From Pseudomonadota bacterium (GTDB taxonomy: Bacteria > Desulfobacterota > Desulfobacteria > Desulfobacterales > RPRI01): 36,595 nucleotides of DNA. Shown piece by piece: positions 387 to 12,758 of this stretch. The first letter of the stretch is position 1. Each line of letters opens with the position of its first letter. Below the pieces are notes generated by a model. The model was not told where the DNA came from. It did not search any database and saw only the letters and a program-made list of their open reading frames with translations. A program made the translations under genes and the position numbers. The stretch is taken from the NCBI GenBank assembly GCA_018901125.1, contig JAHIFE010000112.1, forward strand, positions 1 to 36,595, in the 5' to 3' direction.

Positions 387-1832
387 ATGCCTTTCAAGAT
401 TAAACCAGCTTCTTATTTTGTATTGATTATTTTATTTATTTTTATGCAAAATAGTTTGGCTGTGGCTCAGCCTGTTAACGTAGAAGCTTCTGCAGAGAAT
501 GAGCATGCAGTTGGAAATGAAACCGGTTCTGAAGTTGTCGATAAAGAAGTTGTTAAAAAGCTTAATAAAATGACTCCTGAAGAAATTGCCGTTCTCGACA
601 AAAAACTCGCTGATGCTCTTGTCCTTTACTATGACAGAGATTTTGCCCGGGCGCTTCCGATTTTTAAGGAAATTGCAAGCAAGGCTGAGACAATGGATGT
701 TATGTTCTGGATTGGCACAAGCGCAATGAGAACCGGCGAAAGCGATCTTGCGGTTAAAAAATTCAAACAAATGCTTTCGATAGATCCGAAATTAAACAGG
801 GTAAGACTTGAGCTTGCCGCAACATATTTTAAAACTGGAAATTTAGATGAGGCCCGCAAAGAACTCGATATTGTGAGAGCTGCGTCTCCTCCTAAAGCAG
901 TTCTTGATAATATATCAAAAATGTTGGCCGCGATTGATGAAAAAAATAAAAAAATATTCTGGAATCTAAGGGTTGCAGAAGGCTTCATGTGGGATGACAA
1001 TATAAATTCAGGCCCCGATCTGGATACGTATCAGGTTTTTGGTGGATTTCTTACCCCGAATAAGCTGACAGCCAAGCTGAGTGATGAAGCTTTTATAACG
1101 AGCGTTGCAGGAAATCTTCTTGTTGATATGGGAGAAGCAAAAGGGCTTATGTGGAATACTTCACTCTCTTTTTATAACAAAGCGCATCTTGATTATAGCC
1201 AGTTTGATTTCCTTTCAATTGATGTAAATACCGGTCCATGGTGGGTAAAACAAAAAGATATTTTAAAACTTCCTGTAGGTTATACAGAAAGAGAATACGG
1301 GAGTGACCGCCTTTCATATGCTTTTCATATTGATCCGGAATTTGAGCATCATTTTAACCAGTATTTCAGTTTAAAAACACTTTTTTCTTACACTACAGAG
1401 AATTTTTATTTTACCAGCAGGTCGGGACTGGATAATGAGAGATACCGTTTTGAACTTGCTCCGTCTTTTTATCTTGATAACCGAAAGCATGTTTTTTCTC
1501 TAACAACCGGGTATGATTATATGGATGCTGATGATGATCGATATACATATGATGGACCATACTTGGGGTTGTCTTATTTTACGAGGTTTCCCACCAATAC
1601 CGAACTTTTTGTGCAGTATATGTGGACAAAGAAAGACTTTGATGACAAACCTCTTCTCTATATCAAGGGCAGGCAAGATGAGCGTGATGGCATAACCGCC
1701 ATAGTGAGCCAGGGATTTTTAAAATATTTTTATACCTCATTTGCTTTTACTTACACTGATAACAATTCCAATGCAGATATCTATGATTATGATCGCACAA
1801 CTTATACTTTAAGTTTAGGCTGCCGTTTTTAA
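387..1832 (+). CDS. Slam-type surface protein assembly modulator (TPR + DUF560 outer-membrane barrel)
   Basis: The 481-residue protein is predicted to be an outer-membrane translocon of the type XI (Slam/DUF560) family, which moves TbpB-like proteins to or past the cell surface. A signal peptide spans residues 1-28 (cleavage after VAQ or nearby). TPR-like helices span about 70-180 and include RVRLELA (138-144) and SPPKAVLDNI (167-176), then WDDNINSGP (202-210), a pattern typical of the TPR-barrel boundary in this family. The rest is alternating aromatic beta-strand sequence ending in a terminal Phe (LSLGCRF), as in outer-membrane barrels. The length fits the family. The start is supported by AAGGAGA upstream of the ATG. 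The next gene follows after 14 bp and has a TbpB-like C-terminus, as expected of a cargo. The family call rests on motif recognition; the cargo pairing is inference. Confidence 0.8.
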   Translation: MPFKIKPASYFVLIILFIFMQNSLAVAQPVNVEASAENEHAVGNETGSEVVDKEVVKKLNKMTPEEIAVLDKKLADALVLYYDRDFARALPIFKEIASKAETMDVMFWIGTSAMRTGESDLAVKKFKQMLSIDPKLNRVRLELAATYFKTGNLDEARKELDIVRAASPPKAVLDNISKMLAAIDEKNKKIFWNLRVAEGFMWDDNINSGPDLDTYQVFGGFLTPNKLTAKLSDEAFITSVAGNLLVDMGEAKGLMWNTSLSFYNKAHLDYSQFDFLSIDVNTGPWWVKQKDILKLPVGYTEREYGSDRLSYAFHIDPEFEHHFNQYFSLKTLFSYTTENFYFTSRSGLDNERYRFELAPSFYLDNRKHVFSLTTGYDYMDADDDRYTYDGPYLGLSYFTRFPTNTELFVQYMWTKKDFDDKPLLYIKGRQDERDGITAIVSQGFLKYFYTSFAFTYTDNNSNADIYDYDRTTYTLSLGCRF

Positions 1833-1846
1833 TCAGGGAGGAATTT

Positions 1847-3580
1847 ATGAAGAGACACTTAATATTTTTATTGTTTACGGTTTTAATTTTGCCGGGATGG
1901 GCTTGTTTATCGTTTGCCGATAACAAAACTGATACCAATATTGTCCGTGGTAAATCAGTATCAGAAAGCCTTCTTCCTGATGAGCTTAAATCTATAAAAG
2001 TTGAAGATTATTTTATTAAATCAAATGAATTGCCCGCAGGAACGATTCAAAAAGCCTCCGGTCATGTTGTAGTAGTACATAAGGATACAAACAAAGCTTA
2101 TTATGCAATAAACGGGGATACAGTTTATCAGCAGGATGTTTTTTATACCCTTAAAGATTCCAGATGCCGTATCAGGTTTAATACGGAAGATGTTATAATA
2201 ATGGGTGAAAACGGTAAGATTATAGTTGAAGAGGTAACAGAAGATAATGTCTCCAAAAGCAAAAAATCTGTCATGAGCATGCTTAGGGGCAAAGCCATGT
2301 TCTATGTGGTTCGTCTGTTTAAATATAAAAGCATTTTAGCTTCTGTGAAAACTCCCACTGCTGTAATGGGTGTAAGGGGAACCAAGTTTGGCGTTGAAGT
2401 AAGAAAAGCCGGTGAAAAAATAGCTGACCTTTCAGACGAAAGCTTGATATATCTTGCTGAAAATGGCTCGGGAAATTTTGAAACTATCATTTACGGTTTT
2501 GACGGTACTGTTGATGTAACTTCCGTTGCTGATGGCAGTACAAACAGTGTCGGAGCCGGCGAAAATCTATTTATTGATAATCTTGGGGCAGGTAATGTTG
2601 AACCTACAGATCCAAATATTGCAAATCAGTTTATTCAACAGACCGAAGGAGGCGGATTTATTCTTTCCGGAATTCCAGGTTCAATTGAAGAAGTTGCCGG
2701 AGATAACATTATTATCAACACTGATAGTTCCGATAGTTATATGGATAATGTTTCCCAGACTCTAACCGGTTTGACGATTGACGAATCCGCTCGACCTGTA
2801 AATAAATTTGGTTATTTTACTTCAATGTTAACAATGGTTGAGCAAAATAATAATTATACAGGCACCTATATAAGTACATCCATGCAAAATCTGGATCATC
2901 ATGGTGCAGTGGCCACTGATATCGTCTATGAAAACGGTGACATGAAACTGGATGCTTCAGGAGGATTGATTAACGCCAAATTAACCGATCTGCAAGTTAA
3001 TGAAGATACAATTTCCGGCAATTATCCTGTCAGCTTTTCAGAACTCGGACATAATGTATATTTGGAATGGGGATACTGGACTCAGACCGCACCTATGAAC
3101 GTCAATAGTTACAGTTACGTTGTTGACAATCGGGGATACTACATAGTTGGAGATCCAACCTTGGCTAATGATATGGCTATCTTGCATAATCTTGGAGGCT
3201 GGTGGTCATATACCGGGGGCGCAGAGGGAACCTTTTGGACAAATACCGGTGGCGATAGCATGACTGGTTCTTTTGATGCCAAGGTAAATTTTATGGAAAA
3301 TGATATTTCAGAATATAATCTTTCTGTTACGGGAGGCGGACACAGCGCAAGCGTAACAGATGCAAGCGGCGTTTTAACAAACGAATCACCTAACTTTAGT
3401 CTTAGCGGCGGTAACTCAGCAATAGATGGTCAACAGGCAACTTTTTCTGCTTACGGGTCTTTTTATGGACCTGCGGCACAGGGCATTGGAGGAGCATGGA
3501 GCATCAATCCTGTTTCAACAGGAGGGCATGCCACCGGCATATTCCACGGAAGCAACCAGGGTCCAACCGCTGCTCCATGA
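1847..3580 (+). CDS. secreted FecR-domain protein with TbpB-like C-terminal barrel, putative Slam cargo
   Basis: The 577-residue protein has an N-terminal export signal (about 1-24; cleavage probably at SFA/D). A Cys at residue 20 sits in a poor lipobox (GWAC), so a soluble or surface-released product is more likely than a lipoprotein. A FecR domain covers about 65-240; its signature VKTPTAVMGVRGTKFGVEV is at 167-185, followed by a second-strand motif GTVDVTS. Residues 300-577 are Gly/Ser/Thr-rich beta sequence ending with SFYGPAAQGIGGAW (538-551), which resembles the FYGP-x-A-x-E-x-GG motif of TbpB-type barrels. The start follows GGGAGGAA. Lying 14 bp behind the Slam-like gene, it is the obvious candidate cargo. 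The FecR domain is clear; the TbpB-like assignment is weaker because it relies on the final motif and strand pattern. Confidence 0.75.
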   Translation: MKRHLIFLLFTVLILPGWACLSFADNKTDTNIVRGKSVSESLLPDELKSIKVEDYFIKSNELPAGTIQKASGHVVVVHKDTNKAYYAINGDTVYQQDVFYTLKDSRCRIRFNTEDVIIMGENGKIIVEEVTEDNVSKSKKSVMSMLRGKAMFYVVRLFKYKSILASVKTPTAVMGVRGTKFGVEVRKAGEKIADLSDESLIYLAENGSGNFETIIYGFDGTVDVTSVADGSTNSVGAGENLFIDNLGAGNVEPTDPNIANQFIQQTEGGGFILSGIPGSIEEVAGDNIIINTDSSDSYMDNVSQTLTGLTIDESARPVNKFGYFTSMLTMVEQNNNYTGTYISTSMQNLDHHGAVATDIVYENGDMKLDASGGLINAKLTDLQVNEDTISGNYPVSFSELGHNVYLEWGYWTQTAPMNVNSYSYVVDNRGYYIVGDPTLANDMAILHNLGGWWSYTGGAEGTFWTNTGGDSMTGSFDAKVNFMENDISEYNLSVTGGGHSASVTDASGVLTNESPNFSLSGGNSAIDGQQATFSAYGSFYGPAAQGIGGAWSINPVSTGGHATGIFHGSNQGPTAAP

Positions 3581-3663
3581 TAGGTTTTAAGAGTTGGAAA
3601 CAGAATTTATTCTATTTCAGCAGCCGGGATATATAACCAAAGCTGATAATTTTGCAGGGGAAT

Positions 3664-5904
3664 TTATTTTGATTTAAGTGTATATGTTCCGTTCCAGCCG
3701 TTACCCGGAGGATTTGTTTTATATTCATTGCAGCGGGCCAGCATTGTTTTGCTTGGCCCGTCGCTTATTGTTATATCAAGAGCTGATATGAAGTGTGATA
3801 TCGCCTGATCCCAGTTTGTCTTCCTGTATGCTGCAAGCCCTTTCGCATAATAGTCAAAAGTCTTACGCATTCTGTCATCTACGTCTTTGGAATACCCGAC
3901 AAGCTCGTAAATGGTTACCGGCTCATTTTTTCCTACCACACTTACCGAATCTATTTCGCGTATTGCAATATCACTTCCAAGAGCCGTTGCCGTGGTATCG
4001 CTTATTAATGAATATATTCCATAAATTTTATTAACGCTTTCAAGCCTTGAGGCGATATTAACGGTATCTCCCATCATTGTATAGTTCTTTCTGGTTTTTG
4101 ATCCCATGTTGCCTACAACGGCAGGACCACTGCAAATACCTGCGCGCATTTTAAGAGTCGCTTTATTCTCCTGTTTCCATTTTGTTCTGAGATCAACCAA
4201 TTTTTTCTGCATTTTAATACAGGCCATGCAAGCTACTTCAGCGTGATTGGGTAAATTATTCGGAGCTCCAAAAAAAGCTACTATCGCATCGCCTACGTAT
4301 TTGTCCACAGTTCCTTCATATTCAACAATAATATCACTCATTTCACTAAGAAATTCATTTAATAATTCGACAAGTTCTTTAGGAGAAAGAGATTCGGATA
4401 TAGTTGTAAATCCCTGGATATCTGAAAAAAATGCAGTAATTTCCCGTTCCTGTCCGCCAAGATCAAGCTTTTCAGGAAATTCTATCAGCTGTTTTACTAC
4501 TGAAGGGGCAAGGTAGGTGGAAAAAGCGTCTCTGATAAATTTTTTCTGTTTCGATTCCGCAAAATATTTATATAATGTTATGCTGACATAGACAATAAGC
4601 ATGGCAGAAAGCGGGTATACAATGTTTAATATCCATCCTTTTTCTGAAAAAAGAAACTGGCATAAAACAATATATCCGGCAAACAATAACGATAATACGC
4701 CAACACTTGTTAAAGCGCTGGTTCTCGGCATCACTAATCCAAGCATAAGACCTGCAATAATTATAGCTAATATATCAAAGATGGTAGCCCATCCCGGTTG
4801 GCACATGAAATTTTTTGATAAAATGCTGTCAACAATATTTGCATGAATCTCAAGACCGGGAAAAACACTGGAAAATGGAGTTACTCTTTGATCGTAAATC
4901 CCTACTGCTGTCACACCTACAAGCACAATCTTGTCTTTTATAAGATTCAGATCTGCTTTCCCTTTTAATATGTCTGTAACCGAAATATGCTGAAAGGTTT
5001 TGGATGGCCCCCTGTAATTAATTAAAATACGTCCGATTTCATCGGTCGGTATTACGAGTTTTCCTATAACAATTTCTTCAACACCATTTTCATATATTTT
5101 AAGAGAAAGCGGTTTTTCATGAAAAGCTCCTACAGCTACAAGGGAAAGAGGAGCATACAGAGTTTCTTTGCATTTCAAAACAGCAGGAAGCCTTCTAACT
5201 ACCCCATCTTCATCCGGAAACATATTAAAATAACCTGAATAGTTAGTTGCATCTGAAATTTCCTTAATATTTGATTGTGGAAACGCCGTTTCTATCAGCG
5301 GTGCTTTCTGTGCAGATTTTGATAAATATCGTATAGAATTATATTCGGAATTCTGCACATTAGACTGATGCATTTCTATCTCTTTTCCATCAAGATGTCC
5401 GGCAGTAGAATTATCAGTCTCGAAAAAATATCCGAGCACAACTTTTGCTTTAGAATCATGAATTGCGGTGGCAAGCAGCCTGTCGCTGTCTGTTTGAAAT
5501 TTCAGATCTTCAAGGTATGCTGATAATGAAGGATTTAGCTGGTTGAATGTTTTAATTTTATTTTGAATACTTTCTATTGTTTTTACAGTAATTTTTTCAT
5601 CGGCTTCAAGAAACCCAATATCAAATGCGATTACTTTTGCACCTGCATTTGAAAGTTTATTAACAAGGTCTGCCATTTTTGACCTTGGCCAGATCCATAT
5701 TCCTTCATCTTTTATGCTTTTTTCATCAACAACCGCAAGAACAACATTTGAAGATGTAGCAACGGTTCCTCTTGATTCAAATCGCAAATCTATAGTCTTT
5801 AATTCCATGAGATCAAGAAAATGGATGCCATGAACATAAGAGATTGTTACGATAATAATAACAAGTAAAGAAATTATGACAGGATTTAGCTTTATTTTAT
5901 TCAT
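3664..5904 (-). CDS. CHASE2-domain adenylate cyclase
   Basis: The product is an inner-membrane class III nucleotide cyclase of about 746 residues. An N-terminal membrane helix is followed by a periplasmic CHASE2 sensor (LKTIDLRFESRG, then VVLAVVDEKSI and AFDIGFLEAD), three closely spaced membrane helices (about residues 370-460) and a cytosolic cyclase domain (about 480-680). The cyclase metal site (FFSDIQGFT and KYVGDAIVAFFG) is intact. The purine-specifying Lys of DKYVGD and Asp of MGDTVNIASRLES favour ATP over GTP. A short helical tail resembling a TPR ends the protein. I chose the ATG at 5904; a TTG at 5919 would place the first residues inside the neighbouring repeat. The gene converges on the FecR gene with an 83-bp gap. 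Sensing of the outer-membrane/FecR neighbours is plausible but inferred. Confidence 0.9.
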   Translation of the reverse strand: MNKIKLNPVIISLLVIIIVTISYVHGIHFLDLMELKTIDLRFESRGTVATSSNVVLAVVDEKSIKDEGIWIWPRSKMADLVNKLSNAGAKVIAFDIGFLEADEKITVKTIESIQNKIKTFNQLNPSLSAYLEDLKFQTDSDRLLATAIHDSKAKVVLGYFFETDNSTAGHLDGKEIEMHQSNVQNSEYNSIRYLSKSAQKAPLIETAFPQSNIKEISDATNYSGYFNMFPDEDGVVRRLPAVLKCKETLYAPLSLVAVGAFHEKPLSLKIYENGVEEIVIGKLVIPTDEIGRILINYRGPSKTFQHISVTDILKGKADLNLIKDKIVLVGVTAVGIYDQRVTPFSSVFPGLEIHANIVDSILSKNFMCQPGWATIFDILAIIIAGLMLGLVMPRTSALTSVGVLSLLFAGYIVLCQFLFSEKGWILNIVYPLSAMLIVYVSITLYKYFAESKQKKFIRDAFSTYLAPSVVKQLIEFPEKLDLGGQEREITAFFSDIQGFTTISESLSPKELVELLNEFLSEMSDIIVEYEGTVDKYVGDAIVAFFGAPNNLPNHAEVACMACIKMQKKLVDLRTKWKQENKATLKMRAGICSGPAVVGNMGSKTRKNYTMMGDTVNIASRLESVNKIYGIYSLISDTTATALGSDIAIREIDSVSVVGKNEPVTIYELVGYSKDVDDRMRKTFDYYAKGLAAYRKTNWDQAISHFISALDITISDGPSKTMLARCNEYKTNPPGNGWNGTYTLKSK

Positions 5905-5906
5905 AG

Positions 5907-5983
5907 GAGCCACTTTCAAAACGTTTCAGTTTAGTAAAGCCAACGCTGAGATCGGCCAAAATGGGACGTTTTGCAATTGGCTC
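5907..5983 (-). mobile_element. MITE-like element, internally deleted copy (77 bp)
   Basis: This is the short copy of the family also found at 13083-13224 and 16321-16462, in inverted orientation. It starts GAGCCACTTTCAAAACG and ends ACGTTTTGCAATTGGCTC. It retains both ends plus the GAGATCGGCCAAAATGGGACG block but lacks about 65 bp of the centre. It ends 2 bp upstream of the chosen cyclase start codon, so it provides the immediate leader of that gene. No clear target duplication is visible here. Confidence 0.8.
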
Positions 5984-6485: not shown

Positions 6486-8429
6486 ATGCCACGACTGACT
6501 GAACAGGAACAACAGGAGATCATCCGCTTTATCGAAGCTGACAAACCGTTGCCGGAAAAGTATCGCTTTTTGCTGTTTGAGGATAAGCGGGAGGTGGAAC
6601 TGGTCTGGAACGGTAAAACAAGTGAAGTATGCAATATTGTACTTCCGTTTCAGGTCATAGAGCAGGTGGATGAGCCGCGGGCAGACAAACCGGAAGATAC
6701 CAGCCTGCAATATGAATTATTTGATACCCGTGGCCGTCAGATGAAAGGCTGGACAAATAAGCTGATATGGGGCGACAACAAGCTTATACTTTCATCGCTG
6801 AAGAACGGGCCGTTGCGCGAGGAAATTGAAAAGCAAGGTGGCCTAAAGCTTATCTACATTGACCCACCTTTTGATGTGGGCGCAGATTTTTCCATGGACA
6901 TCGAAATTCCTTCTTCTTTCCCCCCTGAGAAGGGGGGACAAAGGGGGGTTGAAACCTTCACCAAGAAACCCAATATCCTCGAAGAAATTGCCTACCGCGA
7001 TACATGGGGCAAAGGGGCGGATTCCTTCATTGCCATGATCTATGAGCGGCTGGTGCTGATGCGGGATTTGTTGGCCGAAGATGGTAGTATTTATGTGCAT
7101 TGTGATTGGCGGGTGAATGGCTATATTCGGCTGGTATTGGATGAAGTTTTCGGAAAAGGAAATTTCAATAATGCAATAGCCTGGAACTATAGCGGATGGA
7201 ATAAGAAGTTGTCGTCATCCTTTGAACGAAGACACGATACCATTTTTTTCTACGCAAAATTAGACAAACCAATATTCAACTCCTACTTTGAGCCCTGGGA
7301 ATCAAAGGAAGCTTATGTTAAAGCCAGAAAACAAAAAATCAGAATAAATGGCGATGGACGCGAGTATGTCTTATCTGATGCAGGTGGTGGACAAAGAATA
7401 GAACGATACCTTGATGAAGTTATGGAACAAGGTGTAGTTGTTGATGATGTCTGGAATTTAGACAAAATCAACAATTCAGCTAAAGAAGCGTTGGGATACC
7501 CAACCCAGAAACCTTTCATATTGCTTGAACGCATCATCAAAGCCTCATCCAACGAAGGAGACATCGTCGCCGACTTCTTTTGCGGCTCCGGAACCACAGC
7601 AGCAGTGGCGGAAAAGCTGGGGCGTAAGTGGATCGCAACCGATCTTGGCAAATTCGCTATTCACACAACTCGTAAGCGGCTGATCGGTGTCCAGCGGCAA
7701 CTCAAAGCTGAAGGCAAAAACTACCGCGCCTTTGAAATCCTCAACCTCGGGAAATATGAGCGTCAGCATTATATCGGCGTAACCCCCTCCAGCTCCCCCT
7801 TGTCAGGGGGAGAGCTGAGTTCGGTCAATTCCTCCTTATCACAGGGAGAGGCTGGCGTCCCCCCTGACAAGGGGGGATTAAGGGGGGTTGAAAGACAAAG
7901 ACAGCTTGCAGAAAAAGAAGCCGCCTTTATCGAACTTATTTTAAAGGCTTACCGGGCGGAAAAGACCTCAGGCTTTACTGCATTTCACGGCAAGAAAGCC
8001 GGTCGGCTGGTGGCCGTTGGGCCGGTTAACCTGCCGGTGACACGCCTGTTTGTGGAAGAGATAATACTGGAATGCAGAAAGAAGCATATCACAAGAGTGG
8101 ATATTCTTGGTTTTGAATTCGAGATGGGACTTTTTCCGAATATTCTGGATGAGGCAAGAAATAAGGGAATCGATATTGCTCCCAAGTATATTCCCGCCGA
8201 GGTTTTCGACAAACGGGCAGTAGAAAAGAACCAGGTGGTTTTCCACGATGTGGCAGCCATTGAGATAAAACCGCACATCCAATACCCCCCTGACAAGGGG
8301 GCAAGGGGGGTTATATTCCCTACAACCAAGCACTTACCGAAAAAGCACGTCAAAACAGAAAAAATCCGACCGAGGCTGAAAACAAGTTATGGTTTGATAT
8401 ATTGCAAAATAAGCAATTTTCAGACTTGA
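6486..8429 (+). CDS. mod: type III restriction-modification methyltransferase (Mod), N-terminal part, frame-disrupted
   Basis: This is a site-specific N6-adenine DNA methyltransferase of the type III Mod kind. The catalytic DPPF is at residues 126-129 (YIDPPFDVGADFS) and the AdoMet-binding FFCGSGT at about 364-370, giving the beta-class order. Mod sequence runs to about residue 599 (VVFHDVAAIEIKPHIQ). From 8285 the reading frame enters a palindromic repeat and then a DUF559 sequence in the wrong frame, so the last 48 residues are not Mod-like. The true Mod C-terminus (VELTDFSVFYSQD onward) is at 8735-9208, in the frame that also encodes DUF559. One extra G in the run at 8297-8301 would join everything into a single 908-residue protein. 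Two repeat-derived peptides (PPEKGGQRGV and the PSSSPLSGG...PPDKGGLRGV block) are inserted in frame. The start is preceded by AAGGATAATT. Confidence 0.9.
   Translation: MPRLTEQEQQEIIRFIEADKPLPEKYRFLLFEDKREVELVWNGKTSEVCNIVLPFQVIEQVDEPRADKPEDTSLQYELFDTRGRQMKGWTNKLIWGDNKLILSSLKNGPLREEIEKQGGLKLIYIDPPFDVGADFSMDIEIPSSFPPEKGGQRGVETFTKKPNILEEIAYRDTWGKGADSFIAMIYERLVLMRDLLAEDGSIYVHCDWRVNGYIRLVLDEVFGKGNFNNAIAWNYSGWNKKLSSSFERRHDTIFFYAKLDKPIFNSYFEPWESKEAYVKARKQKIRINGDGREYVLSDAGGGQRIERYLDEVMEQGVVVDDVWNLDKINNSAKEALGYPTQKPFILLERIIKASSNEGDIVADFFCGSGTTAAVAEKLGRKWIATDLGKFAIHTTRKRLIGVQRQLKAEGKNYRAFEILNLGKYERQHYIGVTPSSSPLSGGELSSVNSSLSQGEAGVPPDKGGLRGVERQRQLAEKEAAFIELILKAYRAEKTSGFTAFHGKKAGRLVAVGPVNLPVTRLFVEEIILECRKKHITRVDILGFEFEMGLFPNILDEARNKGIDIAPKYIPAEVFDKRAVEKNQVVFHDVAAIEIKPHIQYPPDKGARGVIFPTTKHLPKKHVKTEKIRPRLKTSYGLIYCKISNFQT
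6918..6951 (+). repeat. in-frame palindromic repeat within mod
   Basis: CCCCCC at 6920-6925 and GGGGGG at 6932-6937 form a hairpin around TGAGAA, followed by a second G6 run at 6943-6948. It encodes FPPEKGGQRGV between IEIP and ETFTKKPN, 10-20 residues after the DPPF motif. Recalled homologous Mod proteins pass from DIEIG directly into a TFTKKPN-like segment, so this is probably an insertion. Confidence 0.8.
7783..7812 (-). repeat. in-frame palindromic repeat within mod, inverted copy
   Basis: The core CCCCCTTGTCAGGGGG at 7795-7810 is the reverse complement of the CCCCCTGACAAGGGGG core found at 7860 and 8286. It is extended by an AGCTC/GAGCT arm. It is translated as SSSPLSGGELSS. A degenerate further copy (CTCCTTATCACAGGGAGAG) follows at about 7831-7849. 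Confidence 0.75.
7859..7890 (+). repeat. in-frame palindromic repeat within mod
   Basis: C6 at 7859-7864, TGACAA, G6 at 7871-7876, then ATTA and another G6 at 7882-7887. It is translated as VPPDKGGLRGVE in the Mod frame. With the inverted copy at 7795 it brackets about 50 bp that look foreign to Mod. The first G-run is six bases here, one more than in the copy at 8297. Confidence 0.8.
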
Positions 8430-8724
8430 AATTTACACGCCAGAAACCATTGGATGAATATATCGTCGATTTTTATTGCTCCGAACTTATGCTGGCAATC
8501 GAAATTGATGGTGATAGCCACGCCGAACAGGTTGAATATGATCAAAACCGCACTTTGAGTCTTAATCAGCTTGGCATAGAAGTGATCCGATATGCAAATA
8601 AAGACGTGATAACTAACATGGATGGTGTTTATTCGGATTTGCTGAAAAAAATCAAATATCGGCAAAAGAAACCCCCTGAATCCCCCTTGTCAGGGGGACT
8701 GTCGAGGAACTTATCAGGGGGACT
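8285..8724 (+). mobile_element. putative DUF559 nuclease cassette bounded by inverted palindromic repeats, inserted in mod
   Basis: The segment begins with CCCCCCTGACAAGGGGG (8285-8301) plus a G6 run and ends with CCCCCTTGTCAGGGGG (8682-8697) plus a degenerate TTATCAGGGGGA copy (8711-8722). The two ends are inverted relative to each other. Between them lies a DUF559 (Vsr/PD-(D/E)XK-like) domain. Removing it joins Mod residues ...IEIKPHIQ to AKIAVELTDFSVFYSQD, which matches how I recall uninterrupted Mod homologues. Its 440 bp plus the one G apparently lost would be 441, a multiple of three, consistent with an originally in-frame insertion. The boundaries are estimated to within a few bases. 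That it is mobile is inference. Confidence 0.6.
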
Positions 8725-9211
8725 TGCAAAAATCGCGGTGGAGCTGACTGACTTTTCTGTTTTCTATTCCCAGGATTCTATTGCAAATGCTGAAGCAGCA
8801 CTGTCGGCAAACAAGAAAGCCGGCAGTAAGATAGTTGTGGAAAAGGGCCAAATCGTTAAAATCAGCAAGGATGCAAAAGGTGAATTTAAGCGGGATGTGC
8901 TGACCAAAGACTGGACTGACTGGATTGATTACTGGGCGGTGGATTTTAACTTCGAAAGCAAACGCGAAATTATCCGGGTGAAGAATGAGGAAACCGAAGA
9001 ATGGGAAGAACGGTGGACCGGAGATTATATTTTCGAAAATGAGTGGCAGTCTTTCCGCACCAAAAAAGACCGCTCACTGGAACTAAAAAGCGTTTTTCAC
9101 GAATGCAAGCCTGGCCGACGAAAAATCGCGGTCAAGGTAGTAGATATCTTCGGTAATGATACTATGACGATCGCAGATATTAGCGTTGGAAATAGCGGAG
9201 GTAAGAAATAA
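8402..9211 (+). CDS. DUF559 endonuclease-like domain fused to the C-terminal part of Mod
   Basis: This reading frame is open from 8294, but before 8402 it has no ATG, GTG or TTG start; the TTG at 8402 is probably an internal Leu. From about 8309 it encodes a complete DUF559 domain: IPYNQALTEKARQ, NPTEAENKLW, then VDFYC and LAIEIDGDSH, which carry the putative catalytic acids, ending with VYSDLLKKIK. DUF559 belongs to the Vsr-like nuclease group. After a repeat-encoded linker (PPESPLSGGL, SRNLSGGL) the frame continues with Mod sequence (VELTDFSVFYSQD, TDWIDYWAVDF, WTGDYIFENEWQSFR, VVDIFGNDTM) to the stop. It probably represents the second half of one interrupted mod gene rather than an independent protein. 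Its stop overlaps the next ATG as TAATG. Whether it is translated depends on frameshifting, slippage or a sequence error at the G-run. Confidence 0.75.
   Translation: MQNKQFSDLKFTRQKPLDEYIVDFYCSELMLAIEIDGDSHAEQVEYDQNRTLSLNQLGIEVIRYANKDVITNMDGVYSDLLKKIKYRQKKPPESPLSGGLSRNLSGGLAKIAVELTDFSVFYSQDSIANAEAALSANKKAGSKIVVEKGQIVKISKDAKGEFKRDVLTKDWTDWIDYWAVDFNFESKREIIRVKNEETEEWEERWTGDYIFENEWQSFRTKKDRSLELKSVFHECKPGRRKIAVKVVDIFGNDTMTIADISVGNSGGKK
8672..8724 (-). repeat. right-end palindromic repeat of the DUF559 cassette
   Basis: CCCCCTGAAT, then CCCCCTTGTCAGGGGG (8682-8697), then a short spacer and a second TTATCAGGGGGA (8711-8722). It is translated as PPESPLSGGLSRNLSGGL, linking DUF559 to the Mod C-terminus. 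It is the inverted partner of the repeat at 8285-8310. Confidence 0.75.
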
Positions 9212-10068
9212 TGGCAAAGGTTGCGAAGACAGCCGGTTCACATAAGTCGCCTTTCGAGCGGATTAAACGCAAGAACGATGCAGGCATGGAATTTTGGTCA
9301 AGCCGTGACTTTTCTGAAATATTGGGCTACGGCGATTACCGCAATTTTGAGGGGGTTATTGAAAAGGCCAAAATGGCCTGTTTCAATAGTGGACACCGCA
9401 TTGAGGATCATTTCGTTGACGTCACCGAATTGATCGAGATAGGAAAGGGTGGGCAGAGACCGGTTAAAACAGTTCTTCTATCGCGTTATGCCTGTTACCT
9501 CGTTATTCAAAACGCAGATCCCAAAAAGGAGATCGTTGCGCATGGTCAAACCTACTTTGCTATCCAAACACGGCGGCAGGAATTGGCTGATGAACGCATT
9601 GAGGAAGAACGGCGGATTCTTTTACGTAAAGAGATTCGGCACCATAACGTTCAGTTGGCAGATGCGGCCAAAAATGCTGGTGTCACAGAACCGATAGATT
9701 ATGCTATTTTTCAAAATCACGGATATATGGGACTTTATGGTGGACTAAAACAGGAAGACATTCATCGGCGGAAAGGCTTGAAAAAGAGCCAGAAGATTTT
9801 GGATCACATGGGTAGTACGGAACTGGCTGCTAACCTGTTTCGTGCAACACAGGCGGAGGAGAAATTGCGCCGGGACAAGGTAAAGGGAAAAGAGGCAGCA
9901 AACATTACTCATCGAAAAGTCGGTGCAAAGGTGCGGCAAACCATCCGGGAATTAGGCGGTACAATGCCTGAAGAATTGCCGGTTGCGGAAAGCATAAAAA
10001 AGATAGAGACCAAACAGCGCAAACAGCTCGGCAAGGCTAAAGCATCCGCAAGAAAGAAAGGCGAATAA
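9211..10068 (+). CDS. dinD: DinD-like (DNA damage-inducible protein D family) protein
   Basis: The 285-residue protein resembles DinD. It opens with SPFERIKRKNDAGMEFWSSRDFSEILGY, then has VEKAK-like helices, GGQRPVKTVLLSRYACYLV and NADPKKEIVAHGQTYFA, all characteristic of DinD/BRO-N-like proteins. Its middle (YAIFQNHGYMGLYGG) and the HMGSTELAANLFRATQ segment also match that family. Length is close to the usual 270-280. DinD was found as an SOS-induced gene in Escherichia coli and is linked to RecA control. The start overlaps the preceding stop (TAATG) and the res gene begins 5 bp after its stop, so it is translated as part of the type III operon. No LexA box was recognised. A role in restraining or assisting restriction is possible but unproven. 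Confidence 0.8.
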   Translation: MAKVAKTAGSHKSPFERIKRKNDAGMEFWSSRDFSEILGYGDYRNFEGVIEKAKMACFNSGHRIEDHFVDVTELIEIGKGGQRPVKTVLLSRYACYLVIQNADPKKEIVAHGQTYFAIQTRRQELADERIEEERRILLRKEIRHHNVQLADAAKNAGVTEPIDYAIFQNHGYMGLYGGLKQEDIHRRKGLKKSQKILDHMGSTELAANLFRATQAEEKLRRDKVKGKEAANITHRKVGAKVRQTIRELGGTMPEELPVAESIKKIETKQRKQLGKAKASARKKGE

Positions 10069-10073
10069 CTGAT

Positions 10074-12758
10074 ATGGCACTGCATCCTGATTTTCCGGCT
10101 TCCCCACACGCAATTCTCGAACCTGGTATCCGATGGTTTCCCGCTGATGAGGTGTTGCGGGATAGTAGTATGGAAAAGTTGATGCCGCCTCTTGTGGCAG
10201 AACTGCGCCGTAAGGTGAAAAAATTCCGGGACGGAGGATACGCTGGAGCGGCAGACACCAGCCGGAGCCTGCTCAATTGGTGGTTCAACACGCCACACCT
10301 GTTACCGAAGTCCGATGGAACCATGGTGGAGTTTGGATACTACTTTGCCCAGCGTGAGGCTTTGGAGACTATAGTCTATCTTTACGATGTGGTTGGGGTT
10401 AAGGACAAACATGATCTGATGCGCTTTGATGCGAGCGGACTTGTTTCAGGAAGCATGTTTGATGAAACCTGGCGGCGGTTTGTAGTGAAGATGGCAACTG
10501 GCAGCGGCAAGACTAAGGTCCTGAGCCTTGCGCTGGCTTGGAGTTTTTATCATAAGCTATACGAGCCGGAATCCGAACTTGCACGAAATTTTCTGGTTAT
10601 TACCCCAAACATCATTGTGTTGGATCGTATTTACCGGGATTTTAAGGGGCTACATATTTTCTTCGATGATCCGGTAGTGCCGGATAACGGCTATGACGGG
10701 CACAACTGGCGCGATGATTTCCAGCTGACTCTGCATTTGCAGGATGAGGTTCGCATTACCAGGTCTACCGGCAATATCTTTCTAACCAATATCCACCGTG
10801 TATATTCCGGTGAGGATATTCCGCCATCACCGGATGATGAAGATATGCGGGACTATTTTTTAGGCAAGCGTCCAACAGGTGCAACTAATGATTCTAAAGT
10901 AGATCTTGGCATGATCGTTCGTGATATAGACGAACTGATGGTGTTGAATGACGAGGCCCACCATATTCACGATCCGCGCATGGCCTGGTTCAAATCCATT
11001 GAAGATATCCACAACCGCCTTAAGCAAAAAGGGGCGGCTCTTTCCATGCAGGTGGACACAACAGCTACTCCCAAACACAACAACGGGGCAATTTTCGTAC
11101 AGACCATTGCTGATTACCCACTCGTGGAGGCAATTTGGCAGAACGTGGTCAAGCATCCGGTTTTGCCCGACGCACCCAGCCGTGCTAAACTGAGCGAACG
11201 TCAAAGCGCGAAATTCACCGAGAAGTACGCCGACTATATCCATCTTGGTGTAATCGAATGGCGCAAGGCGTACGATGAACACGAGAAGATGGGTAAGAAG
11301 GCGATCCTGTTTATAATGACTGACGATACACGCAACTGTGACGATGTAGCCGAATATCTGCAGACTACTTATCCGGAATTTGCCGATAAAGAAGCTGTTC
11401 TTGTAATTCACACAAAGAACAATGGTGAGATTTCGGAAGCAACCACGGGCAAGGGCAAGGAGGAACTGGAGAAACTGCGCAAACAGGCTAATGAGATAGA
11501 TGAGATGGAGAGCCCACACAAGGCTATCATTTCGGTTATGATGCTTAAAGAAGGATGGGATGTCCGCAATGTTACGACCATCGTCGGGTTACGTGCCTAT
11601 AGCGCAAAGAGCAATATTCTCCCCGAGCAGACGCTTGGGCGCGGTTTACGCAAGATGTATCCCGGTGATGTGGAAGAGTATGTCAGTGTCGTCGGCACCA
11701 ATGCCTTTATGGAGTTTGTGGAATCCATCCAGGCTGAAGGCGTGGTACTGGAACGTAAGGCTATGGGGGAAGGAACGGGACCAAAGACTCCGCTTGTAAT
11801 CGAAGTTGACAAGGAAAATGAGAAGAAAGATATAGCTGCTCTGGATATAGAAATCCCCATACTATCGCCCCGCATTTACAGGGAATACAAAAGTCTGGGC
11901 GATCTGGACATTGCCGTAATGGGGCATCAACGGGTGCTGTATAAGCAGTTCAGCGAGGAAGAACAGCGGGAGATTGTATTTAAGGACATCACCAACGGAG
12001 AGATTACGCATACCACGATTTTAGATACTGCCGGCATTGCCGACTACCGCAGTGTGATCGGGTACTTTGCACAAAGCATAATGAAGGATCTGCACCTGGT
12101 AAGCGGCTATGACAAGCTATATGGCAAAATCAAAGCATTTGTGCAAGAGGAGTTGTTTGAAAGTCCGGTGAATCTGGAAGACCCCAACACATTACGCAAC
12201 CTGTCAGAACTGGCCGCCACCAAAACACTGCTTGAAACATTCAAAAAGGCCATCAACTCACTGACAGTGCGGGACAAAGGCGATGCCGAAATACGGGATA
12301 CCATCAAGTTGCGCCAGACCCGGCCTTTTGTGGCAAAAGATCAAGGTTATCTTGTCCCTAAAAAAAGTGCCTTCAACCGTATCATTGGTGACAGCCGGCT
12401 GGAGCTTAAATTCGCCGACTTTTTGGAAAATTGCGATGACGTGGTTTCTTTTGCAAAAAACTACATGGCTGTCCATTTCAAACTCGATTATGTAAAAGCA
12501 GACGGTGATATTTCCAACTATTACCCGGATTTTATTGTTAAACTATCGGATAGCCGAGTTATCATTGTCGAAACAAAGGGGCAGGAAGATATTGATGTGC
12601 CGCTTAAGATGGAACGACTGCGGCAATGGTGCGAAGATATCAATCGGGTGCAGACAGAAGTGAAATACGACTTTGTTTACGTGGACGAAGTGAGTTTTGA
12701 AAAATTCAAGCCCACTTTATTCCAGAACTTGATAGAAGGGTTCAGGGAATATAAATGA
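10074..12758 (+). CDS. res: type III restriction endonuclease subunit Res
   Basis: The 894-residue protein is an SF2 helicase-endonuclease that works with Mod to cleave DNA. The Walker A motif ATGSGKTK is at 141-148, the DEAH box in LNDEAHH at 293-296, TATP follows at about 327, and helicase motif VI is in QTLGRGLRKMYPG at about 525. The C-terminal nuclease shows YYPDFIVKL (816-824) and VETKG (832-836), giving the PD...ExK triad D819, E833 and K835. All key residues are present, so the subunit appears intact. It is somewhat shorter than the roughly 970 residues of EcoP-type Res. If Mod is truly inactivated by the upstream frame break, an intact Res would be without a partner for target recognition. 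That is usually harmless for type III enzymes, which need Mod to cut. Confidence 0.93.
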   Translation: MALHPDFPASPHAILEPGIRWFPADEVLRDSSMEKLMPPLVAELRRKVKKFRDGGYAGAADTSRSLLNWWFNTPHLLPKSDGTMVEFGYYFAQREALETIVYLYDVVGVKDKHDLMRFDASGLVSGSMFDETWRRFVVKMATGSGKTKVLSLALAWSFYHKLYEPESELARNFLVITPNIIVLDRIYRDFKGLHIFFDDPVVPDNGYDGHNWRDDFQLTLHLQDEVRITRSTGNIFLTNIHRVYSGEDIPPSPDDEDMRDYFLGKRPTGATNDSKVDLGMIVRDIDELMVLNDEAHHIHDPRMAWFKSIEDIHNRLKQKGAALSMQVDTTATPKHNNGAIFVQTIADYPLVEAIWQNVVKHPVLPDAPSRAKLSERQSAKFTEKYADYIHLGVIEWRKAYDEHEKMGKKAILFIMTDDTRNCDDVAEYLQTTYPEFADKEAVLVIHTKNNGEISEATTGKGKEELEKLRKQANEIDEMESPHKAIISVMMLKEGWDVRNVTTIVGLRAYSAKSNILPEQTLGRGLRKMYPGDVEEYVSVVGTNAFMEFVESIQAEGVVLERKAMGEGTGPKTPLVIEVDKENEKKDIAALDIEIPILSPRIYREYKSLGDLDIAVMGHQRVLYKQFSEEEQREIVFKDITNGEITHTTILDTAGIADYRSVIGYFAQSIMKDLHLVSGYDKLYGKIKAFVQEELFESPVNLEDPNTLRNLSELAATKTLLETFKKAINSLTVRDKGDAEIRDTIKLRQTRPFVAKDQGYLVPKKSAFNRIIGDSRLELKFADFLENCDDVVSFAKNYMAVHFKLDYVKADGDISNYYPDFIVKLSDSRVIIVETKGQEDIDVPLKMERLRQWCEDINRVQTEVKYDFVYVDEVSFEKFKPTLFQNLIEGFREYK

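Follow-up and report, generated by a model that had tools for sequence, protein, structure and literature searches.

Three adjacent genes at 387–5904 of the window, by which we mean the whole 36,595-nucleotide stretch of DNA analyzed here, encode a Slam-type outer-membrane translocon, its predicted cargo (a FecR domain joined to a C-terminal TbpB/NHBA-type barrel), and a CHASE2 class III adenylate cyclase. We moderately favor the reading that the first two genes constitute a type 11 secretion (T11SS) pair and that the locus links an event at the outer membrane or cell surface to cAMP through the CHASE2 cyclase. The Slam and cargo genes (genes 1 and 2) lie on the + strand at 387–1832 (481 residues) and 1847–3580 (577 residues), respectively, with the cargo start 14 bases past the Slam stop, an operon-like spacing. 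The cyclase gene (gene 3) lies on the − strand at 3664–5904; its open reading frame spans 3664–5919 and, because the alignments of its orthologues begin at codons 6–9, the ATG at 5904 is the likelier start. All three genes are present where the initial annotation had placed them. A terminator or other structure in the 83-bp gap between the convergent cargo and cyclase genes was rejected, as the gap scores no better than shuffled sequences. A search of the window's own genome found no PF04575 match besides gene 1. The host probably belongs to the sulfate-reducing Desulfobacterota, because its genome contains a dsrA match (622 bits, above the cut-off) and because the one named relative of the cargo recovered in a scan of genome contigs comes from a Desulfobacteraceae MAG (L032).

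The Slam translocon and its predicted FecR-bearing cargo

The translation of gene 1 matches the SlipAM profile (PF04575, DUF560) with 57.8 bits (cut-off 22; E = 1.7e-15) over residues 192–481, covering the profile from end to end (positions 1–288 of 288), and TPR_19 with 38.7 bits (cut-off 25); TPR_Slam, at 34.7 bits, falls slightly below its cut-off of 35.2. Following an N-terminal signal sequence encoded within 387–1832, the AF2 model (65 sequences, pLDDT 90.5) contains eight helices in the TPR region (528–947, + strand; helices at residues 48–187) and 14 long strands (954–1826, + strand; residues 190–480, pLDDT over 90) that form a predicted 14-stranded barrel. The barrel of the model superimposes on two porins, OmpG and CymA (Z 21–22), and the TPR part on the type III secretion chaperones SycD and IpgC (Z about 16). 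An exopolysaccharide-type TPR-barrel exporter was considered, with BcsC and PelB present among the Foldseek neighbors; the PF04575 match and the cargo decide for Slam. The full-length profile match and the modeled TPR helices and strands thus bear out the initial assignment of gene 1 to the DUF560/Slam family, and the encoded protein is, as judged from sequence and model, a Slam/T11SS outer-membrane protein predicted to translocate the cargo.

The cargo begins with a hydrophobic, putative signal sequence (1847–1921, + strand; hydrophobic at residues 5–23) that carries no lipobox in the alignment, and the single cysteine near its N-terminus (residue 20) is not conserved. Since none of 71 FecR proteins encoded downstream of Slam has a lipobox-like motif, the cargo is probably of the non-lipidated type, with a predicted SPI-like Sec signal. 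The FecR part follows directly after the signal sequence (2009–2644, + strand; Pfam core 2141–2419), and matches PF04773 at 38.7 bits (cut-off 24; E = 1.4e-9; residues 99–191), so that the suggested searches with PF04575 and PF04773 both gave scores above cut-off. Residues 116–271 of the cargo model superimpose on the cell-surface signaling domain of PupR (6ovk; Z 13.3, 2.4 Å, 118 residues aligned). Neither a cytoplasmic anti-sigma domain nor a transmembrane helix was found in the cargo, the signal sequence being its sole hydrophobic stretch. A linker (2648–2800, + strand; pLDDT <50 for residues 268–313) predicted to be disordered connects FecR to the pedestal and barrel; in alignments of the cargo relatives the linkers are longer, and acidic or rich in Gly/Ser/Pro.

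The C-terminal region (2804–3568, + strand) comprises a pedestal (handle) and an eight-stranded barrel of the TbpB/NHBA type, the putative Slam address. The TbpB-like tail had been proposed from a terminal motif; the motif alone is weak, and residues 320–577 match Pfam TbpB_B_D with only 10.5 bits, below the cut-off of 26. Those relatives that do match this model score just 16–22 bits, and it appears to be too narrow for the lineage. The tail is established instead by a profile of 15 sequences, for which the only PDB matches are TbpB, LbpB and NHBA (E = 1.4e-6 to 9e-4), and by the predicted structure. Prediction of this structure had been named beforehand as the test on which the barrel proposal could fail; the AlphaFold model (18 sequences) has an eight-stranded barrel, with pLDDT of about 82–96 across most of the barrel region. 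VIA-align comparisons of the barrel model gave Z 17.5 with NHBA (2.4 Å, 145 residues), Z 14.9 with the TbpB C-lobe (190 residues), Z of about 12.5 with fHbp and Z 12.2 with HpuA. T11SS cargos lead the structure matches to residues 308–573, and hemophilin (6om5) is among the Foldseek matches of the cargo model. Together with the above-threshold PF04773 score and the PupR match, these comparisons confirm the proposed joining of a FecR domain to a Slam-type barrel, and Slam-dependent export of the protein is predicted.

The CHASE2 adenylate cyclase and recurrence of the locus

Gene 3 encodes a CHASE2 domain (4747–5856, − strand; PF05226, 197.8 bits, E = 3.1e-58) and a class III cyclase domain (3913–4446, − strand; PF00211, Guanylate_cyc, 94.9 bits, E = 6e-27), for which the closest solved cyclase is CyaB (3r5g; E = 6.4e-38). 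D500, K540, D544, D618, N621 and R625 are all present; we take D500 and D544 to bind metal, K540 and D618 to contact adenine, and N621 and R625 to act on the transition state. With both domains and the catalytic residues in place, gene 3 specifies an intact class III adenylate cyclase with a CHASE2 sensor, in keeping with its original description as a convergent cyclase of this kind. It has four hydrophobic helices, and since such helices lie on either side of the CHASE2 domain, this domain would, by the usual topology, be periplasmic. The same genome encodes cNMP-binding proteins, which could serve as receivers of cAMP.

To place the locus in context, Slam sites were drawn from genomes of the order (389) and of the phylum (297) and their surroundings annotated, giving 131 Slam loci in 50 families, all within the phylum. 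A FecR gene adjoins Slam at 97 of the 131 loci (37 families), as counted with a FecR profile trained on part of those same loci, and a TbpB-like barrel lies beside it at 50 (20 families). A relative of the cyclase occurs near Slam at 45 loci, a few of these matches being partial (e.g., L117 and L207), and FecR and cyclase are both near Slam at 43 loci, in 20 families and four gene arrangements. Pfam models, applied independently to 16 near-complete genomes (22 Slams), placed FecR within 4 kb of 20 Slams (0.12 expected at random) and CHASE2 within 6 kb of 11 (0.2 expected). Recurrent linkage of the three genes, the second point on which the initial annotation could have failed, is therefore far above chance. 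The cyclase is upstream at 7 loci and downstream at others, either in the same orientation (25) or, like that of the window, convergent (13); the neighborhood thus outlives rearrangement, and a single genus-restricted origin of the cyclase linkage was rejected, as the linkage recurs in other families and arrangements. Where the contig allows, nearly all barrel loci have a Slam alongside. An apparent FecR-CHASE2 fusion of 1230 residues (L196) proved to be two genes separated by a stretch of N and was discarded.

In one large Slam clade the partners are FecR proteins of about 320–410 residues that have no barrel but a disordered tail; FecR, rather than the barrel, is thus the commoner Slam companion in the phylum. 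About half of these short proteins end in a motif like LPxFPxxP, the cyclase is rare beside them, and a hidden barrel was rejected, as profile comparison shows no similarity. The prevalence of FecR over the barrel (97 versus 50 of 131), and the existence of an entire clade of this kind, would suit a Slam that is an outer-membrane sensor or porin docking FecR proteins, with the cargo barrel as the docking part, rather than a translocon. We regard this as improbable, given the full TbpB-type address in the window's own pair, the match to PF04575 over its full length, and the way in which Slam type tracks cargo type: on the Slam tree, a quick one with several long branches, cargo type changes 14 times, compared with a mean of 39.4 after shuffling, so that the tree sorts by cargo type.

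Proposed coupling of export to cAMP

FecR-CHASE2 pairs also occur apart from Slam in the same genomes (13 in the 16 near-complete genomes), and in the FecR-barrel cargo two pairings thus meet, that of Slam with barrel and that of FecR with CHASE2; this is our strongest reason for supposing that the genes are linked in function. In the mechanism that we favor, the non-lipidated cargo would be exported by Sec, and Slam would take its C-terminal TbpB/NHBA-type barrel as the address and move the barrel end over the outer membrane. The N-terminal 'effector' slot would be filled by a FecR-type signaling domain, and the CHASE2 cyclase would be its likely signaling partner: we infer that FecR contacts CHASE2 and reports cargo docking, export or the binding of a ligand, with cAMP as the output. 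By analogy with FecA:FecR:FecI, Slam would stand for the receptor, the FecR-barrel protein for FecR and the cyclase for the sigma factor. As to the initial proposal of a single display-and-sensing module, the three genes do stay together across the phylum; for the module itself, the evidence is this neighborhood.

Several observations count against coupling. In the papers cited here, all T11SS cargo of described fate ends up extracellular, where FecR could not meet a periplasmic CHASE2. A genome of the same genus (G009) has a cyclase 82% identical at the locus, and its cargo carries TPR-CsgG and no FecR; a related CsgG-type cargo is found in G022. The nearest relative of the window cyclase lies away from the Slam-cargo pair in four genomes (G031, G022, G052 and G016), in another (G002) the cyclase is kept with the cargo reduced to a 109-residue remnant and Slam absent, and many Slam-FecR pairs among the 131 loci have no cyclase nearby. 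A rival reading is an ordinary T11SS pair, in which the whole FecR-barrel protein is exported as an adhesin or ligand binder, FecR is merely structural, and the cyclase is near through cAMP regulation of the operon or shared ancestry. Export of known T11SS cargos as whole proteins, the exchange of FecR for CsgG-TPR in G009 with retention of the cyclase, and the presence of FecR domains in leptospiral proteins that have been named surface adhesins, to the models of which the FecR part gives weak matches in 13 of 18 members, all agree with such a pair. It is nevertheless somewhat unlikely in our view: the FecR model resembles a signaling domain (PupR), and the FecR-CHASE2 pairs without Slam and the four arrangements with Slam exceed what co-regulation alone would suggest.

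One version of the coupling mechanism would keep FecR in the periplasm. The barrel would exit C-terminus first, leaving the linker in the Slam pore and FecR as a periplasmic plug and reporter to CHASE2, in a LapA-like manner. Such an arrested, membrane-spanning state is possible, because the FecR part has weak similarity to LapA retention modules and the linker is disordered; we know of no arrested T11SS cargo. Of 18 members, 8 have a FecR part with a weak match to NCBIfam retention_LapA (best E = 3.4e-5), the disordered linker of the model corresponds to low-complexity stretches in relatives, and LapA-type retention modules remain periplasmic (PMC13090378). The window protein itself scores only 19.8 bits against that family (NF033682; cut-off 50), and disordered N-terminal parts are common in ordinary T11SS cargo too (PMC12282271); we consider the anchored arrangement unlikely. 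Equally doubtful is its extension to the phylum as a whole, by which the FecR-barrel protein would be arrested with its barrel out and FecR in the periplasm, the CHASE2 cyclase would report the state of the outer membrane or surface as cAMP, and the T11SS would act as a receptor, and not just as an exporter, in an envelope signaling system.

Relation to known systems

With the described T11SS pairs, the cargos of which include TbpB, NHBA, fHbp and hemophilin, the locus shares a translocon of TPR and 14-stranded barrel and an adjacent pedestal-barrel cargo; it differs in the predicted SPI-like signal and the FecR effector domain of the cargo and in the linked cyclase, and neither a TonB receptor nor a haem/metal gene was seen next to it. 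T11SS cargo follows an effector-pedestal-barrel plan, with the barrel as the address that directs it to Slam (PMC12282271), and about ten cargo architectures have been described (PMC12282271, PMC8406197). This plan fits the swapping of N-terminal effectors on a constant pedestal-barrel seen here: FecR in most cargos, TPR-CsgG in L040 and L050, and an N-terminus without assigned domain in L047. The phylum of the window lies outside the coverage of the cited surveys. The T11SS cargos named in the cited papers either serve as adhesins or have haem, metal or host molecules as their ligands, and none is a signaling protein. The initial view that a FecR-bearing cargo would be new agrees with the published record as far as main texts go, since neither FecR nor cyclases are named in those of PMC12282271 and PMC8406197, FecR is absent from that of PMC5449769, and a literature search combining type XI secretion with FecR found no report.

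FecR/PupR signaling regulators share the FecR domain (PupR match, Z 13.3), whereas here it comes without the cytoplasmic anti-sigma part or transmembrane helix and is tied to Slam and a cyclase. The BiofilmReg operon of Burkholderia, which encodes a LysM-FecR protein and a CHASE2 histidine kinase (PMC5192318), likewise sets a FecR protein gene beside a CHASE2 sensor; its output is a histidine kinase rather than an adenylate cyclase, and it lacks Slam and the TbpB-type barrel. LapA-type retention modules share weak profile likeness to the FecR part and the idea of an N-terminal periplasmic plug behind a C-terminal part that is exported, but leave the cell by T1SS or T5bSS under control of c-di-GMP and LapG, and the window protein scores far under the family cut-off. 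The Slam/barrel and FecR/CHASE2 pairings are each known; the novel part is a T11SS with a signaling-type cargo and a conserved cyclase neighbor.

CHASE2 is a widespread sensor domain, the stimuli of which were reported as unknown in 2016 (PMC5192318), and the FecR-barrel cargo would offer it a candidate partner. A FecR cargo coupled to a cyclase across at least 20 bacterial families would connect outer-membrane protein export with a second messenger, and the locus may tie the export of proteins at the cell surface to signaling inside the cell.

Cyclases and their neighbours

The cyclase gene of the window has a restriction-modification cluster (6486-12758, +) immediately upstream, in divergent orientation; it comprises an N6_N4 methylase (6486-8429, +), a DUF559 endonuclease-like protein (8402-9211, +) and a ResIII subunit (10074-12758, +).

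In genome G002 (L048:6161-8781), the cyclase adjoins a 109-aa barrel remnant and no Slam match was found in this genome; the locus is a decayed Slam-cargo pair at which the cyclase has been kept. Within genome G031, the cyclase most similar to that of the window (62% identity; L168:8694-11749) precedes another kind of FecR protein, 244 aa long, with neither a barrel nor a Slam. An apparent FecR-CHASE2-cyclase fusion (L196:1906-5598, -) was rejected as an assembly artefact, owing to a run of N.

Cargo architectures

TPR-CsgG replaces FecR on the same pedestal-barrel, adjoining Slam, at two loci (L040:4818-6893, -; L050:7906-9897, +), an effector swap that at L040 retains the same cyclase neighbour. 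Single FecR domains also occur with many barrels in one cargo, namely a 2074-aa protein with approximately six barrels in genome G052 (L045:1686-7910, +) and a three-barrel protein in G001 (L035:8408-11959, +). G052 contains many FecR-barrel genes over several contigs, and one Slam was found in it.

FecR partners lacking the barrel

Downstream of Slam, barrel-less FecR proteins of ~320-410 aa are encoded at L088, L113-L118, L123, L124, L128, L131, L136-L141, L146 and L154. Their tails are disordered, often with LPxFPxxP at the end, and are possibly another Slam address.
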